Program-made: the position numbers and the translations under genes | From: Puniceicoccales bacterium Verruco_02 | GTDB taxonomy: Bacteria; Verrucomicrobiota; Verrucomicrobiia; Opitutales; Oceanipulchritudinaceae | NCBI GenBank assembly: GCA_001604585.1 | Contig: LVBW01000054.1 | Coordinates: 1 to 38,639, forward strand | Length of the DNA stretch: 38,639 nt | Direction: 5' to 3' | The notes under the pieces: generated by a model | What the model saw: the letters and a program-made list of their open reading frames with translations, nothing else | What the model was told of the DNA's origin: nothing | Databases searched by the model: none | Shown here: piece after piece, positions 1 through 8,045 of the stretch | Layout: every line of letters begins with the position of its first letter | How positions within the stretch are numbered: the stretch's first letter is position 1

Positions 1-1545
1 CGTCCTGCCCCCAAAGACAGATTCAAGGTCTGCTTTCTGTTCCTCAGATTGCCAAGTTGAGCCGAGATACGGCGGATTCCCGCAGATGTAGGTCTCGCCG
101 CCCTCGTTCGCGAAGTCGATTTCCGGCTGGTCGAGCGGCGTTGAAAAGAGGTCTTCGGCGCGATACTTCACGCCAGCCCCCGTCGGCGGACAAATGCTGA
201 GCCAGTCCAGCCGCAGCGCGTTGCCGCAGGTAATCCAGTTCGTCGCCTCAAGCGGCAGAAACTCCGCCAGAGCCTCCTTCTGGCCGCGATACAGCACGTC
301 GCACTGATACTCGGCGATGACAAGGGCGAGCCGGGCGATTTCGGCGGGGAAGTGGCGGATTTCGATGCCACGGAAGTTCGTGAGCGGAATCACCGTCCGC
401 TCGTGCGTCTCGTTGCGCCGCCTGTTGATTTCGCCCTCGATCTTCCGCATTTCCTTGTAGGCGATGACAAGGAAGTTGCCCGAGCCGCAGGCGGGGTCAA
501 AGACGCGGATTCTGGCCAGCCGGTTGCGGAGGTTCAGGAGCTTGCGCGCGTTGTCCCCTGCCTCCTCCAGCTTCGCGCGCAGGTCGTCGAGAAAGAGCGG
601 GTTCAGCACCTTCAGGATGTTCGGGACGCTCGTGTAATGCAGGCCCAGCGCGCCGCGTTCGGCGTCGTCCGTAATGGCCTGAATCATCGACCCGAAAATG
701 TCGGGGTTGATCTTCGTCCAGTCCAGTTGCCCGATGTGAACGAGGTAGGAGCGCGCGATTTTGCTGAAGTGAGGGATTTCCAGCTCGCCAGAAAACATGC
801 CGCCGTTGACGTAGGGGAACTGGTCGGCCCAGGAACGGAAGTTCCCTGCCGCGCGGTCAATGGGTTTCGTGTTCATCGCGCGGAAGATTTCCGCGATCAC
901 CTCGTGGGTGTTCGAGGAATCGTGCGCGCTCATCTGGTCGATGGTGTCCGTGAACAGGCCCTTGCCGTTGAAAATGTCGGTGTCTTCCGCAAAGAAGCAG
1001 AAGATCAGGCGCGCCATGAAGTGGTTGATGTCGTGCGGGCTGGCTGATGTGCCCCAATCGGGGTTTGTCTTGAGCAGCTCCACATAAAGCCGGTTGAGGC
1101 GGCTCGTGGCCTTGATATCAAAGGCGTTCTCGCGGATTTGCCTGACCGTGCTGATTCCGGCAAGCGGCAGGAAGAATCCGAAATGGTCGGAAAAATCGGG
1201 ATAGTTGCACGCGACCGTTTCGCCGCTTTCCAAATCCTCGGCCTCAAAGGAAACGCCGTCCGTGGCAAGGACAAACTGGGCCTTCTGCTTGGCCGTGGCC
1301 GGGCTGTTGCGGAGCGCTTCCAGCGTAGCCGTGACTTCGCCTGCGGCGCAGGCTTTGATGTGGATGTTGTTGCGCTGAAGGACGGCCCCCGGAATGTCGG
1401 ATTTGTTAGTCTCCCCGCTTTGCAGTCGCCGGATGGTGGTATCCTTGTTCCCAAAGGCCTCAAGAAACGCATAAGGGAACCGCGTCGCCTCAAAGGGCGC
1501 TTCCGCCAGCAAAGACACGGCTTCTTCAATTTCTACGGCATTCAT
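1..1545 (-). CDS. Class I DNA adenine methyltransferase, MmeI-like family (partial, C-terminus beyond window)
   Basis: The frame is open from an ATG at 1545 to the window edge (515 codons); an in-frame TGA lies just upstream, so this is the first possible start. Motif I DPACGSGNF is at residues 350-358 (SAM binding) and the catalytic motif IV NPPY at 490-493, the pattern of N6-adenine methyltransferases. The N-terminal 300 residues look like the helical spacer of MmeI-like enzymes (the stretch RLIFCFFAEDTDIF is typical). I see no PD-(D/E)XK nuclease motif before motif I, so this reads as a modification enzyme, or a restriction-modification enzyme whose nuclease is separate or lost. The C-terminal target-recognition part is not in the window. 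It is the largest gene of the island and shares its strand with the next three genes. There is no clear Shine-Dalgarno site. Function is inferred from motifs. Confidence 0.88.
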   Translation of the reverse strand, partial: MNAVEIEEAVSLLAEAPFEATRFPYAFLEAFGNKDTTIRRLQSGETNKSDIPGAVLQRNNIHIKACAAGEVTATLEALRNSPATAKQKAQFVLATDGVSFEAEDLESGETVACNYPDFSDHFGFFLPLAGISTVRQIRENAFDIKATSRLNRLYVELLKTNPDWGTSASPHDINHFMARLIFCFFAEDTDIFNGKGLFTDTIDQMSAHDSSNTHEVIAEIFRAMNTKPIDRAAGNFRSWADQFPYVNGGMFSGELEIPHFSKIARSYLVHIGQLDWTKINPDIFGSMIQAITDDAERGALGLHYTSVPNILKVLNPLFLDDLRAKLEEAGDNARKLLNLRNRLARIRVFDPACGSGNFLVIAYKEMRKIEGEINRRRNETHERTVIPLTNFRGIEIRHFPAEIARLALVIAEYQCDVLYRGQKEALAEFLPLEATNWITCGNALRLDWLSICPPTGAGVKYRAEDLFSTPLDQPEIDFANEGGETYICGNPPYLGSTWQSEEQKADLESVFGGRT

Positions 1546-1707
1546 GGGGAAGGGAATATCTCAGGGCTTGGCCAAGTTACGTATTGATCGCACGTTGCAA
1601 CTTCTACCAGCTTGCCAACAGATTATGAATACTATGGCCCAACAATTCAAACCGCAAGGATTTAGACTCGGGAGTGAATGCCGTTCAGGAGCGTTTCTTA
1701 CTGCCTT

Positions 1708-2205
1708 TCAGATTCCGAAATCCGCATCATATTGGACTGCGGTAACCGGCCCTACGAATTCTCGCACGTTCTGGACGAGAGCATCCCTGTCGATCGATGG
1801 CGGAAGCTCCATGAGCTTTCCATTCTTCTGCGGCTCGGTCAGGGATTTCAAAAGAAGATTTGCCGCCACTCGCGGGTCTCTGTCCGGTCGTTGCGCCTGT
1901 TCGAGTGTACAGGCATCGCGAAAGAAAAACGGCAGGATAGCGGCCAATAGCTCCAAATGTTCACCATCGTGCTTTTTTAGCTTCCCGTCATTGTTTTTTC
2001 GGTTTCTGCGTTCAATATCTTGGTATGCGGGCAACTTGGAAACAAACAGCGAGCAGGGGTCGAGAACGCTTACCGTAAGCTTCTTGTCGTATTTGCACGG
2101 GATCCGATAGGCTATTCCTTGTGCAATCGGCGTGTCCCGCTCCAATGTTGGAACCAATTTTATGACTTCAGCTTTGGCCTCCCCCTGTTTTAATTTGTGT
2201 TTCAA
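1708..2205 (-). pseudogene. 3' part of a split nucleotidyltransferase-like gene
   Basis: A 165-codon frame whose only start is a TTG (2205-2203) overlapping the stop of the upstream fragment. Its sequence (LDPCSLFVSKL, then a charged segment and HLELLAAILPFFFRD) resembles the C-terminal half of AbiEii-like nucleotidyltransferase proteins, where a conserved 'P..C..S+..N' segment and a helical domain follow the NTase core. The upstream 91-codon fragment carries the matching N-terminal half. The two are in frames related by one base at a run of four T (2204-2207 on the minus strand); five T would fuse them into one protein of about 255 residues. It is either a disrupted gene, a sequencing error, or less likely a programmed -1 frameshift. 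Family assignment is from remembered pattern only. Confidence 0.5.
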
Positions 2206-2477
2206 AACATAGGTAACACTATTGGATTATCATTATGAGCCATTGGTTTGCTCATTGTTGCAGGCCAATAATCCCTTAAGGTAAAGGCGACAGGATTTCC
2301 TTCCCCTTTTATGTCGATATCAACGCTGGTTAAATTCGTTATATATTTGTCCGAGTAGTATTTGTACCAATACTTACATCCATAGCCATCAATAAGGGCA
2401 TAATGCGCGCCCAGCCCATGCCTTTCCAAGACATAAATTGCCGGAGCGTATTTGCCAAAAAATAGACTGGCCTTCAT
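2202..2477 (-). pseudogene. 5' part of a split nucleotidyltransferase-like gene
   Basis: This 91-codon frame starts at ATG 2477, overlapping the stop of the upstream gene (ATGA), so it is translationally coupled. The stretch ALIDGYGCKYWYKYY followed by TSVDIDIKG matches the layout of nucleotidyltransferase-like proteins of the type GGQAVNFWAxxY ... TSKDIDFxG, in which the DxD carries the catalytic acidic residues; here the GG of the canonical loop is replaced by DG. The frame ends at TGA (2204-2202) just after VLPMF, and the downstream fragment continues the fold in the -1 frame. If active as a whole protein it would be a minimal nucleotidyltransferase of the toxin/antitoxin or abortive-infection kind, but the break makes that doubtful. 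Confidence 0.5.
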
Positions 2478-3025
2478 TTGAGCCTACACAACGGCTCAAA
2501 CAACTCTTTCTTTGAGAATAATTTTCGAAGGCTCTCCCCCAAAGCAGTAGCCCCATTACTACTGTGATCGACGTAGCTTCTATATTTGTCCTCGCTACCC
2601 GCCGTAAGAATAGATTCCTCGCCTTCGGGACTTATTCCGTAGTTACAATCAAAGCGCCAATCGATTTTGAGCTCGAAAGTGGCTTCCGCCAAATCCCAAA
2701 GCGAAAAATTCGCATCCGTGATTGCATGGATGCTTTCCTGCAACTTTTGAATCTCAGCCAACGTCGGAATGGATTCGCGAACGTGATTGCCTAACTCGTT
2801 ACCATAGTTCCCTTCCGTATAATAAAACACCTGTTCCGTCGCAGGTATCCGCTCCCTAATAGCGCGCAGCTTTTCTTCGGACGGGAATCCGGCAATAGAC
2901 AGGGCATCCGCCTTGGGTCGCCAAGGTTGCCAACCATGTGGAGTTTCCGGGGCCATGTCCGGTATATCTTCGCCGATGTCCATCATATTTACAACATACC
3001 TTTTTTTGAGGCCCCACGCCAGCAT
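2474..3025 (-). CDS. Hypothetical island protein, partner of the split nucleotidyltransferase gene
   Basis: A 183-residue soluble, acidic protein with no signal peptide and no transmembrane segment. I do not recognise the family. It has a proline- and tryptophan-rich N-terminal part (HGWQPWRP near residue 30), a central helical segment (IPTLAEIQKLQESIHAI) and a second helix set ending LRKLFSKKELFEPL. The stop overlaps the start of the nucleotidyltransferase fragment by ATGA, so the two form a coupled pair in which this gene comes first, an arrangement common for antitoxin-toxin or defence gene pairs. Alternative starts at the two adjacent Met codons (residues 14 and 15) are possible and have a weak AAGG upstream; the first ATG has none. 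Base composition is more AT-rich than the xylose genes to the right, as expected in an island. Confidence 0.6.
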   Translation of the reverse strand: MLAWGLKKRYVVNMMDIGEDIPDMAPETPHGWQPWRPKADALSIAGFPSEEKLRAIRERIPATEQVFYYTEGNYGNELGNHVRESIPTLAEIQKLQESIHAITDANFSLWDLAEATFELKIDWRFDCNYGISPEGEESILTAGSEDKYRSYVDHSSNGATALGESLRKLFSKKELFEPLCRLK

Positions 3026-3141
3026 TATTAATAAGACTTTACCATATGTAAAAACGCACCTATCTCAGTCTGTGCAAAAATTGCACGTACTGGCAACCCC
3101 ACGCGAATAGGCCTTTCGCAACTGCTCTGAACGCCCGCCGC

Positions 3142-3209
3142 CGACCATTTTGTTGACGCCAACAAAATGATGCAATGCGACCATCTTCCCGACACCGGCA
3201 AAATGGTCG
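3142..3209. repeat. Cluster of CGACCAT/CATTTTG inverted and direct repeats
   Basis: A perfect 10-bp inverted repeat with a 4-bp spacer (CATTTTGTTG 3146-3155, CAACAAAATG 3160-3169) lies inside a wider pair: CGACCATTTTG at 3142-3152 and its complement CAAAATGGTCG at 3199-3209. A further direct CGACCAT is at 3178-3184. Such clustered repeats a few hundred bases inside an element end are typical of recombinase arm sites or of an operator, but there is no protein here to match them to. Confidence 0.6.
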
Positions 3210-3292
3210 CTGGTAAGTGCCCTGTCATGTTACGTTTTAATATCATTTCTGCATAAGTGGAAATATTTCGTAACAACCCACAATCATGAGTA

Positions 3293-3309
3293 TGTCGGAA
3301 ATTCCGACA
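3293..3309. repeat. 17-bp palindrome
   Basis: TGTCGGAA-A-TTCCGACA is a perfect palindrome with 8-bp arms about a single central base. It lies in the gene-free stretch between the island genes and the tRNA-Ser fragment, about 85 bp from the CGACCAT repeats. It could be an operator for a dimeric regulator or part of a recombination site. Confidence 0.55.
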
Positions 3310-3332
3310 CACTCGCGACGAAGTTTTGCAAC

Positions 3333-3620
3333 TTACATCCCGCCCATCCCCGTTTCGTTCGATTGGATTTTCACTCCTGCGCTTGCCACAATCGCGCCAA
3401 TGGCGGCTTTGAGACTTTCGTTGAGTTTGGGCCAATTTATGATGACATTCGCCAGCTCGGGACTAACCTCGAAAACACCTTGGGTCCCATTCTGTGTCCC
3501 GTCGGTCAGGCAATTTTCCGTAACTGCCTGCTCATTAAGTTGTTGATTATCAGAGCATCCAGCTTCGAATCCCCCCCTCTCCGCCAGTTGGCTCTCTGTT
3601 GTGGTGCCGACTTTATTCCC
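3333..3620 (-). pseudogene. Start-less open frame reading through the tRNA-Ser fragment; island-end relic
   Basis: From just after a TGA (3623-3621) to a TAA (3335-3333) the minus strand is open for about 95 codons but has no ATG, GTG or TTG start before its last residues. The translation reads AERGGFEAG across the tRNA fragment and ends with ELANVIINWPKLNESLKAAIG and a short tail. The 'ELAxVIxxWPxLxxxxxxxI' pattern is one I associate with small peptides found next to tyrosine-recombinase genes at tRNA insertion sites in Planctomycetes and Verrucomicrobia (memory, not checked). It is therefore best read as an element-end relic, not a working gene. Confidence 0.4.
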
Positions 3621-3790
3621 TCACAAAGACGCGCTAGATGTTTGCGAGTATTAGCTTTCATATCTCGCGCAGCTCTTGATGACTCATCTTCAAACCCAGA
3701 CGGAGTTGCTTTCATTCGGCGTGTGCCGACATAAGCTCCTTTAGCGGATGGCAGAAGGCAGGCGCTTATGTGGCCACATAAAAACGGCAC
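3506..3790 (-). pseudogene. Possible integrase C-terminal relic crossing the tRNA-Ser fragment
   Basis: A 94-codon frame that enters the tRNA-Ser fragment from the xylose side. Its end reads RANWRRGGDSK across the fragment. WRRGxDSNP is the familiar tail of phage-type integrases whose genes run into a tRNA 3' end, because it is simply the translation of that tRNA end. The preceding ARDMKANTRKHLARLCEG is compatible with an integrase C-terminus but shows no catalytic residues. The ATG at 3790 lies inside the xyl terminator, so the true upstream part is missing. It may equally be a chance frame. Confidence 0.28.
3564..3586 (+). other. tRNA-Ser 3'-end fragment, probable att site of a genomic island
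   Basis: On the plus strand TTCGAAT (T-loop) is followed by five C (T-stem 3' strand), CCTCTCC (acceptor 3' strand), G73 and CCA. The segment lengths are exactly 7, 5, 7, 1 and 3, and the acceptor strand and discriminator fit a serine tRNA beginning GGAGAGG. The 90 bases upstream do not form the rest of a tRNA: there is no GGAGAGG, D-arm or anticodon arm. It is therefore a duplicated tRNA end of the kind left at attR by integrases. With this orientation the intact tRNA-Ser should lie to the left, outside the window, with the island between. Confidence 0.65.
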
Positions 3791-3816
3791 GCATCCATGA
3801 GATGCGTGCCGTTTTT
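3780..3816. terminator. Bidirectional intrinsic terminator after xylB
   Basis: A perfect inverted repeat: AAAAACGGCACGCATC (3780-3795), loop of five, then GATGCGTGCCGTTTTT (3801-3816). The stem is flanked by A5 and T5, so it ends transcripts from either side; on the minus strand it lies 32 bp after the xylB stop. It is the boundary between the xyl operon and the island end. Confidence 0.9.
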
Positions 3817-3847
3817 ATATAACTCAAGTGGCTCGTTGAGCTTTCCT

Positions 3848-5371
3848 TTACAGGGCTGCTATGTCCTTGAAGCTTTGCTTGAGGGCGGGATACAGGGCTT
3901 TGTAGCTCGGGTAGGCTTTGGCATATATTGCCACGTCCTTGCCCGGCTCTGCAGCTACCTTGGTCGCTATGCACTTGGCCGCCGCCGTCCTTACGTCTGC
4001 ATATGCCTTGGTGCCAACTGCGGCCAGTAGGGCGGCTCCGTAGGCTGCGCCTTCGGTAGCATTGACCATCGCAATGGGCGTATTGAATGCGTCGGCCATC
4101 ATCTGACGCCAGAGGGCGCTGCGCGCTCCGCCGCCGCTTGCCACGATTGTTCGGCTTACGATGCCAAGGTTGCGCATCAGTTCCACGCTGTCGAGCATTC
4201 CGTAGGTGATGCCTTCGAGGACGCTGCGGACTATTTCGGCATTGCCGTGACGCAGGGTGAGGCCGACAAAGGCACCACGGGCCAAGGGATCGGGGTGGGG
4301 CGTACGTTCGCCCGAAAGGTATGGTAGGAAGAACAGGCCTTCGCTACCTGCGGGCACTGTGGCGGCCATTTCGTCGAACAGTGCGTAGGGGTGCTTTCCT
4401 TCGGCCTTGGCCTTGGCTACTTCCGCCTGCCCGAGGGCATCGCGGAACCATTGGAGAGAACCCGCCGCGCTGAGCATGACGCCCATGAGGTGCCATTCGC
4501 CGGGCACTGCGGCGCAGAATGCGTGCAGCTTGCCCTGGGGTTCGCCGCGGTACTGGCGCGAGTGTGCGAACACCACGCCGGAGGTGCCGAAGGTGGCCGA
4601 GATGAGGCCCTCTTCCACAATGCCGCAGCCGACGGCCTGTGCGGCCTGGTCGCCGCCGCCGCCTGCTATTGGAAGGCCTTGGGCTAGGCCGGTAAGTTCC
4701 GCAGCCTGTGCAGACAGATGGCTCGAAATGTCGGGCGATTCGGATAGCTCCGGCATCCAGCTTTCGGGGATTCCGGCCGCTTCGAGCATCACCTTGGACC
4801 ACTTGCGCGCGGGCACGTCCAGAAGCGAGGTGCCGGATGCGTCGGATACTTCCGAGGCATAAACGCCGCTTAGACGGTAGCGTATGTAGTCCTTGGGCAG
4901 GAGCACCTTGGCGCAACGGGCGTACACTTCCGGCTCGTTCTGGCGCACCCACAGTATCTTGCCCGCGGTGAAGCCGGGCAGAATGGGGTTGCCGGTGATG
5001 GCGAGCACCTTTTCGGCGCCGACCTTCTCGGTCAGCTCGGCGCACTGGGCGGCCGTGCGCTGGTCGTTCCACATGATGCAGGGGCGAAGGACCTTGCCTT
5101 CGCTGTCCAGCATTACAAGGCCGTGCATCTGGCCGGAGAGGCCAATGCCTGCCACGTCCGAGGGCTTGACCCCGGCCTTGGCGATAACGGTGCGGATGCC
5201 TTCGATGGTGGCCTTCCACCAATCCTCCGGGTCCGCCTCGGCCCAGAGGGGCCGAGGCGTCCGGAAGGGATATTCCGGGGCGCAGGACGCGAGAACCGTC
5301 CCATTCAATTCCATAAGGAGCACCTTCGTGGAGGAGGTGCCTATGTCCAGTCCGAGATAACAGGTCGGCAT
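3848..5371 (-). CDS. xylB: Xylulokinase
   Basis: A 507-residue FGGY-family kinase that phosphorylates D-xylulose to xylulose 5-phosphate with ATP in the cytoplasm, feeding the pentose phosphate pathway. The N-terminal phosphate loop DIGTSSTK is at residues 9-16, GQMHG at 80-84, WNDQRT at 101-106 and GGGGDQAAQAVG at 237-248, where D241 is the catalytic base of the family. The C-terminal ATP-domain signature SGGGARSALWRQM is present. The start at 5371 was chosen because MPTCYLGLDIG is the normal N-terminus; the frame stays open much further upstream, but that part overlaps xylA and is low-complexity shadow. It lies 28 bp downstream of xylA on the same strand, forming a two-gene operon that ends at the hairpin at 3780-3816. 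Confidence 0.96.
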   Translation of the reverse strand: MPTCYLGLDIGTSSTKVLLMELNGTVLASCAPEYPFRTPRPLWAEADPEDWWKATIEGIRTVIAKAGVKPSDVAGIGLSGQMHGLVMLDSEGKVLRPCIMWNDQRTAAQCAELTEKVGAEKVLAITGNPILPGFTAGKILWVRQNEPEVYARCAKVLLPKDYIRYRLSGVYASEVSDASGTSLLDVPARKWSKVMLEAAGIPESWMPELSESPDISSHLSAQAAELTGLAQGLPIAGGGGDQAAQAVGCGIVEEGLISATFGTSGVVFAHSRQYRGEPQGKLHAFCAAVPGEWHLMGVMLSAAGSLQWFRDALGQAEVAKAKAEGKHPYALFDEMAATVPAGSEGLFFLPYLSGERTPHPDPLARGAFVGLTLRHGNAEIVRSVLEGITYGMLDSVELMRNLGIVSRTIVASGGGARSALWRQMMADAFNTPIAMVNATEGAAYGAALLAAVGTKAYADVRTAAAKCIATKVAAEPGKDVAIYAKAYPSYKALYPALKQSFKDIAAL

Positions 5372-5399
5372 CGTGGTCTTGCCCCGAGAAGCTGGGTTA

Positions 5400-6713
5400 T
5401 TAGCGGATGAAGCTGTTGAGTGTTGCCTGGAGCAGTTCCTGCCGGCCGCTCTTGACGGTGGCAAGCGGCTCGCCCTGCTTGAGCGCGTATTCGCTAAGGC
5501 AGTCAAAGCAGGCTTCGCCAGCTTCGATCTTGGCACCGATGCCGCTGTTCCAGCTTGCGTAACGGTCAGCAACAAACGCTTCGAGGAAACCGTCCTTCTT
5601 GATCTCGCTGGCGATCTTGAGGGCGCGGGCAAAGGTGTCCATGCCAGCGATGTGGGCGAGGAAGAGGTCGTCGGGCTGGAAGGACTCGCGGCGGCGCTTG
5701 GCGTCGAAGTTGAGGCCGCCCGTTGTGAAGCCGCCCATCTTGAGGACTGCCAGCATGACGTCAGTAGCCATGTAGAGGTTGGTGGGGAATTCGTCCGTGT
5801 CCCAACCGATGTTCTGCGTGCCGCTGTTGGCGTCGATCGAGCCGAGGATGCCGTTGTCAACGCAGACGGCCAGTTCGTGGGCCATCGTGTGCTGGGCCAG
5901 CTCTGCGTGATTGGTCTCGATGTTCATCTTGAACTCGCCGAGCAGGCCGTGCTCGCGCAGGAAGTTCATGCAGGTGGCCGTGTCGGTGTCGTACTGGTGC
6001 GTGGTGGGTTCTTTGGGCTTGGGTTCGATGTAGAACTGGCCCTTGAAGCCGATCTTGGCCTTGTATGCCACGGCCATTTTCAGGAGCTGGGCCAGGTGGT
6101 TCAGCTCGCGCTTCATGTCCGTGTTGAGGAGGGTGTTGTAGCCTTCGCGGCCACCCCAGAACACGTAGCCTTCGCCGCCCAGCTTGAGCGTGGCGTCCAT
6201 CGCCTTCTTCACATTGGCCGCTGCGTAAGCGAACACGTCTGCGCTGGGCGAGGTGCCAGCGCCTTGCATGAAGCGGGGGTGGCTGAAGAGGTTGGCGGTG
6301 CCCCAGAGGAGCTTCTTGCCTGTTTCCTTCTGCTTGGCCAGCAGCTTCTCGGTCACTGCGTCAAAGTTGTCGAAGGTCTCGGCCAGGTTGCGCCCTTCGG
6401 GGGATACGTCGCGGTCGTGGAAACAGTAGAAGTCCAGGCCGCACTTCTGGATGAATTCAAAGAAGACATCGACGCGCTTGAGAGCATTGGCAAGGCTGTC
6501 GGAGCCGTCGTCCCAGGGCATCAGGGCTGTGCCAGCGCCGAAGGGGTCGCTCGAAGTGCCGCGCATGGTGTGCCAGTAGGCGCAGGCAAAGCGGAGGTGG
6601 TCCTTCATGGGCTTGCCATCGACAAGCTCCTCGGGGTTGTAGTGCTTGAACGCAAAGGGATTGCGCGAAGCGGAACCTTCAAACTTGATTTCCGGTACGT
6701 CGAAATAGCTCAT
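5400..6713 (-). CDS. xylA: Xylose isomerase
   Basis: A 437-residue class II xylose isomerase (the longer form with an N-terminal extension) that interconverts D-xylose and D-xylulose using two divalent metal ions. FCFHDRD at residues 97-102 carries the proton-shuttle His99 and Asp102; IEPKPKEP at 229-236 carries metal ligand Glu230 and Lys232; NIETNHA and GSIDANSG are the later metal-site motifs. Length and ends match the family without gaps. The start ATG 6713 gives the usual MSYF-type N-terminus. It is the first gene of the xylAB operon. No xylose transporter or XylR-type regulator is adjacent; the AraC-type gene 3 kb away could be one but is better placed to control the starch locus. Confidence 0.97.

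Positions 6714-7959: not shown

Positions 7960-8045
<86 letters not shown>

Follow-up and report, generated by a model that had tools for sequence, protein, structure and literature searches.

The 26-bp segment at positions 3564-3589 of the window (the whole 38,639-nucleotide stretch of DNA analysed here) is the right attachment site, attR, of a ~16.0-kb integrative, probably mobilizable, defence island in the 3' end of a tRNA-Ser(GCT) gene of a Verrucomicrobiota-type bacterium. Sequence comparisons make it very probable that the tyrosine integrase gene of this island (int) spans its own attP and that integration exchanges the int 3' end. The window is one entire contig (C2) of an assembly of 101 contigs and 2.70 Mb, and the left part of the island lies on a second contig, C22. 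The features that define the island and its integrase are as follows:

Window 3564..3589 (+): attR, a 26-bp copy of the tRNA-Ser(GCT) 3' end, from the T-loop (TTCGAAT) to CCA and a further GTT; attL, its direct repeat, is at C22:11522-11497.
Window 1..3589 (no strand): island DNA up to its right end; C22:1-11522 supplies the left part, across an assembly gap estimated at ~0.94 kb.
Window 3333..3589 (-): detached int 3' end, 76 codons (3563-3336) past the att site and a stop codon at 3333-3335, with the tail ...GTQNGTQGVFEVSPELANVIINWPKLNESLKAAIGAIVASAGVKIQSNETGMGGM; in the int frame only if the island ends are joined.
C22:10215-11558 (+): int, tyrosine integrase of 447 aa (PF00589, 68.7 bits).

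The first-pass annotation of this DNA described a tRNA-Ser 3' end copied without a tRNA body and took it for an island end, and both readings are borne out. TTCGAATCCCCCCCTCTCCGCCA is located at 3564-3586 on the plus strand, with no other match in the window when up to three mismatches are allowed, and none of 100 shuffles contained a match. ARAGORN detected no tRNA at 3564-3589, the window's only tRNA being a tRNA-Leu at 7960-8045. A BLAST search of positions 3450-3600 against the 2.70-Mb assembly returned one other copy, C22:11497-11522(-). This copy covers the stretch from T-loop to CCA of an intact tRNA-Ser(GCT) gene, C22:11500-11593(-), and 3 bp downstream of it. Position and match of the segment were thus correctly annotated, but its length was not, the identity running for 26 bp instead of 23. 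The intact tRNA-Ser that the annotation had proposed to look for, with the same terminal bases, the right orientation and a tyrosine integrase adjoining, is the one on C22. Intact tRNA and displaced 3' fragment form exact direct repeats, as in tRNA-targeting islands: read in the orientation of tRNA-Ser, the island starts after the tRNA 3' end and finishes at the window copy, which points the same way, the arrangement that attL and attR should show. Since tRNAs share conserved T-arms, a chance or decayed-tRNA match might be mistaken for an att site. The identity of all 26 bases, acceptor strand and 3 bp past CCA included, the correct orientation, the adjacent integrase and the lack of tRNA similarity upstream of 3564-3589 leave that explanation a negligible probability.

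The two contigs are linked by a second line of evidence. A gene for an MmeI-type restriction-modification enzyme is divided between them: the window holds the 5' part and C22 the 3' part, whose MmeI_C domain, at the very end of the contig, is the only one in the assembly. These two halves of one gene connect C22 and the window independently of the repeat. Against an MmeI-type model of 912 positions, the window covers 27-509 and the start of C22 covers 824-911, from which we estimate the gap at ~0.94 kb and the whole island at ~16.0 kb. The N-terminal, spacer and methyltransferase domains are encoded in the window and the C-terminal domain on C22, and the position of the target recognition domain (TRD) falls in the gap. 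A search of the assembly for the middle of the gene did not recover it; a match on contig C57 belongs to another, 1430-aa ORF. The cargo recognized at the two contig ends comprises the following:

Window 1..1545 (-): MmeI-type restriction-modification enzyme, N-terminal 515 aa (MmeI_N, MmeI_hel and MmeI_Mtase profile matches).
C22:1-318 (+): C-terminal 105 aa of the MmeI-type enzyme (MmeI_C profile match).
Window 1708..2205 (-): 165-aa ORF, no profile match.
Window 2202..2477 (-): 91-aa ORF overlapping both neighbours by 4 nt, no profile match.
Window 2474..3025 (-): 183-aa ORF, no significant profile match.

The DNA methyltransferase attributed to the island by the first-pass annotation is therefore real, and can be refined to a fused restriction-modification enzyme of MmeI type (type IIL/IIG) cut by the contig gap. 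The "nucleotidyltransferase-like pair" proposed for 1708-2205 and 2202-2477 finds no support, neither ORF matching anything in Pfam, PADLOC, NCBIfam or PHROGs; judged by eye, a frameshift may have split a single gene into the two, with 1708-2205 as its second half. Further cargo on C22 includes a DEAD/ResIII helicase, a T5orf172/MUG113 protein, AbiEi and a PDC-M19A/B candidate defence pair, together with a MOBF (TrwC/TraI) relaxase-helicase and an HTH_17/excisionase-type protein, the latter below the cut-off. At C22:3776-6149, the AbiEi antitoxin-type gene is followed by the PDC-M19A/M19B candidate pair (with DUF488 in M19A) and not by AbiEii. The relaxase gene is interrupted by an in-frame TAG at C22:9049-9051(-), the ORFs 9375-9049 and 9048-6541 on its two sides sharing one frame and matching adjacent parts of the profile. 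This TAG may reflect decay, recoding or an assembly error, and the present copy may not be mobilizable now. No transfer apparatus was recognised in C22:1-11522. The gene content suggests an integrative element that is loaded with defence functions and carries mobilization genes.

Beyond attR, the chromosomal flank starts with the following genes:

Window 3848..6713 (-): xylulokinase (FGGY domains) and a xylose-isomerase-type gene, with best relatives in Verrucomicrobiota.

The xylose-isomerase-type product is 65-68% identical to those of the closest Verrucomicrobiota metagenome-assembled genomes, several of them labelled Akkermansia; the assignment to Verrucomicrobiota is inferred from this one gene. 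A near-perfect inverted repeat 3' of the xylulokinase gene (3778-3818, a self-match on the opposite strand) is probably its terminator. A comparison with a genome lacking the island, suggested at annotation, gave a divided answer. The orthologous tRNA-Ser is present at 94-96% identity in two congeners, G001 and G002, and the integrase is absent from it; relatives of the integrase sit on other contigs in G001, and G002 has none. Synteny of the right flank, in turn, is missing: the sequence beyond the tRNA-Ser of both congeners is unrelated to it, gene order right of the att site is not conserved, and the homologues of the flank genes in G001 lie elsewhere. No conspecific empty site was found, and the xylose-isomerase neighbourhoods of named genomes have no tRNA-Ser beside the xyl genes and hence no empty site. 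At the sequence level, the integrase-free tRNA-Ser genes of the congeners support an island boundary here, short of proof. G002 seems to hold two copies of a xylose-isomerase-type gene, since two of its contigs (C55 and C56) both start inside the 5' end of one.

The integrase gene runs towards tRNA-Ser(GCT) and terminates inside the tRNA gene, so that the last 11 residues of its product are read from the tRNA antisense strand. The catalytic residues are present (R213, K242, H310, R313, H336 and Y346), and Tyr346 lies 81 residues ahead of the att crossing. When the island ends are joined at the repeat in a computed circle, int stays open through the att site and encodes 512 instead of 447 aa, the 11 tRNA-read residues being replaced by 76 residues from window 3563-3336(-). 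The 230 bp just inside the att site, which the first-pass annotation passed over, thus encode the integrase C-terminus. A first search of the genome contigs returned no relative of the integrase protein, but relatives were found in genomes of the order; viral contigs, plasmids and phages yielded only distant integrases (24-30% identity), with no circular form among them.

To see whether chance could explain the open frame, integrase relatives were drawn from 372 genomes of the order, and up to 40 kb was fetched on the island side of each. Where several second copies of the tRNA end occurred, the best BLAST match was taken irrespective of frame. Among 34 integrase places, our own included, a second copy of the tRNA end lies on the island side in 21; 9 show no second att in the DNA fetched (some being at contig ends), and the other 4 have no tRNA beside them. 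The int frame reaches the att site in 20 of the 21, the exception (G159b) stopping before it; among related int ORFs beside a tRNA or tmRNA, 25 of 27 run into that RNA gene. The 20 elements with both ends are islands of 2.8-32.8 kb at 14 kinds of tRNA/tmRNA target. Past the att site, the int frame outlasts both other reading frames in every one of them (median 68 aa versus 8.5 aa for the other frames), which corresponds to a naive probability of (1/3)^20 = 3e-10 if relatedness among the elements is ignored. The catalytic domains are mostly 35-60% identical to our own. In the catalytic-domain tree, in which several deep forks are weak, the tailed architecture occurs on both sides of the midpoint root and sister elements sit at different tRNAs; the layout therefore appears to outlive changes of target.

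The tails themselves are conserved. Sixteen of the 20 share LxxVVxxWxxLxxxxRxAI, with W and L invariant, whereas the subclades G223/G348 and G328 have other tails or none recognisable. A profile built from the 16 matches in 53 of the 372 genomes of the order and, with a stricter limit, in 22 of 387 genomes drawn from the phylum, the matches being weakest outside the class. T-arm antisense sequence occurs within 100 nt upstream of 12 of 15 examined tails outside the profile set, mostly at exactly 14 or 17 nt, versus a background of 11 in 696 windows. One candidate for an unsplit gene, chosen by ORF length (G622), was ruled out as a tail followed by an unrelated ORF. At that locus (L271, contig C47), the tRNA-end fragment and tail run without a stop into a ~400-aa ORF, replication-initiator-like by eye, to which int would be fused in a circle.

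A naturally unsplit gene and related loci add to this picture. In G029, a 498-aa integrase gene (int2, L166:15774-17270) carries the catalytic domain, the tRNA 3' segment and the tail in a single frame. No tRNA of G029 ends in the 20-nt att segment of int2, which is an exact tRNA-Pro(TGG) 3' end in other genomes of the order; it has matches in 38 of the 372 genomes (37 besides G029), and 11 of 12 tested loci are tRNA-Pro. The same locus (contig C23, L166:15774-18681) holds two related integrases in tandem, the unsplit int2 and, directly after it, one integrated at tRNA-Met. G105 contains the 3' portion of an int gene with identical part order. On contig C18 of G114, the catalytic domain is joined directly to the tail, with neither a tRNA segment nor a tRNA nearby, which supports the tail as the native integrase C-terminus.

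Together, the in-frame tails of all 20 elements and the unsplit gene argue for an attP inside int and for replacement of the C-terminus on integration. The excised circle would carry an int gene encoding the catalytic domain, a linker, a segment read antisense to the tRNA 3' end, and the conserved tail (512 aa). Crossover at the tRNA end would then leave the catalytic domain and linker at attL, with the frame stopping in the tRNA gene (447 aa), and a start-less tail at attR in the window; excision would restore the gene. The full-length enzyme may favour integration, and the tail-less form may be less active or dependent on the excisionase-like HTH protein, such that integration would alter the direction or activity of the enzyme. 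By analogy with Mx8, whose altered enzyme is less active and has been described as a switch, the chances are about even that the exchange works as a functional switch, with integration favoured and excision damped or re-regulated.

The same anatomy has other readings. int ORFs that read into tRNAs, commonly ending in "...GFEPP" read-through, are a familiar annotation effect, and the island could be an ordinary tRNA island with attP beside int, a chance read-in and, at the right end, the relic of an older, displaced integrase. The motif GTQNGTQ occurs in both the left and right segments of our own element, which would fit a partial duplication. A relic could lie in any frame, yet all 20 tails are in that of int, and the frame test largely refutes this explanation; the tails also keep a constant distance of 14 or 17 nt to the tRNA end, are conserved among elements with catalytic domains mostly 35-60% identical to our own, and have an unsplit counterpart with identical part order. 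We consider it quite improbable. An integration of the "suicidal" kind, in which loss of the tail would inactivate Int and the island would stay until another copy supplies the enzyme, is rated unlikely, though clearly less so. In archaeal SSV-type integrases, the att site does lie within the int gene and integration abolishes function (PMC8371274). SSV integration, however, cuts off the catalytic domain, whereas here the whole domain, Tyr346 included, stays at attL as in Mx8, and the island retains its excisionase-like HTH gene (a match below the cut-off).

The self-splitting int gene proposed here has its closest functional parallel in the Myxococcus phage Mx8 (IntP/IntX), in which attP also lies in the int coding sequence and the catalytic domain is left whole. 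According to PMC4701971, Mx8 integration swaps 112 C-terminal residues for 13 (here, 76 for 11), and the altered enzyme is still active but weaker (PMC4701971, PMC6070905), an arrangement described as a switch (PMC6070905). The int frame likewise runs through the att site in the computed circles of our element and 19 relatives and in one natural unsplit gene. Read by eye, Mx8 Int has a T-arm-like STGLEP at roughly the right place. Comparison of the two integrases gave a BLASTP E value of 0.097 and an hhalign probability of 9% for the catalytic domain, and 0.2% for the tail, so that neither part shows usable similarity. Judged on sequence, the working layout is that of Mx8, but the enzyme is outside the Mx8 integrase family; unlike the phage, most of these elements are small islands, and their targets are many different tRNAs. 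Archaeal SSV-type (type I, "suicidal") elements share the att site in int, the tRNA targets and the division of the gene by integration (PMC8371274). They differ in that their N-terminal and catalytic parts are separated, whereas here the catalytic domain stays with the N-terminal part and only the C-terminal tail is lost.

Looser parallels exist. Mycobacteriophage BPs has attP inside a regulatory gene whose product changes its C-terminus on integration (PMC4557955), the altered protein being the repressor and not the integrase. In streptococcal ICEs inserted in rumA, att lies in the integrase gene and the C-terminus differs between integrated and excised states (PMC4701971), but the enzyme is a serine integrase and the target a protein gene. 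Our island fits the Islander class of tRNA/tmRNA islands, with intact tDNA at one end, a 3' fragment at the other and a tyrosine integrase inside (PMC4383910). Unlike here, int is not known to span attP in most of them, and the Islander description gives only Mx8 and SSV as examples that do (PMC4383910). No description of this layout in Verrucomicrobiota was found among the open-licence papers searched.

Integrases altered by their own integration are described as very few, with Mx8 named (PMC4701971), and the kind that disrupts its own gene is described as confined to archaea (PMC8371274). In our survey, the self-split layout is the rule in a diverse bacterial integrase clade, extending to 20 of 20 elements with both ends and to 14 tRNA/tmRNA targets. 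We tentatively propose, at somewhat less than even confidence, that these form a class of self-editing bacterial integrases spanning the lineage, whose attP is a translated cassette in int, exchangeable for almost any tRNA/tmRNA 3' end; a change of target would rewrite the middle of the enzyme, and the loss of the tail at each integration would act as a built-in directionality switch. The clade offers numerous naturally paired enzymes, with and without the tail, on which to study the bias of tyrosine integrases to integration. It also provides a practical marker, in that an orphan tail beside a tRNA 3' fragment indicates the far end of an island.
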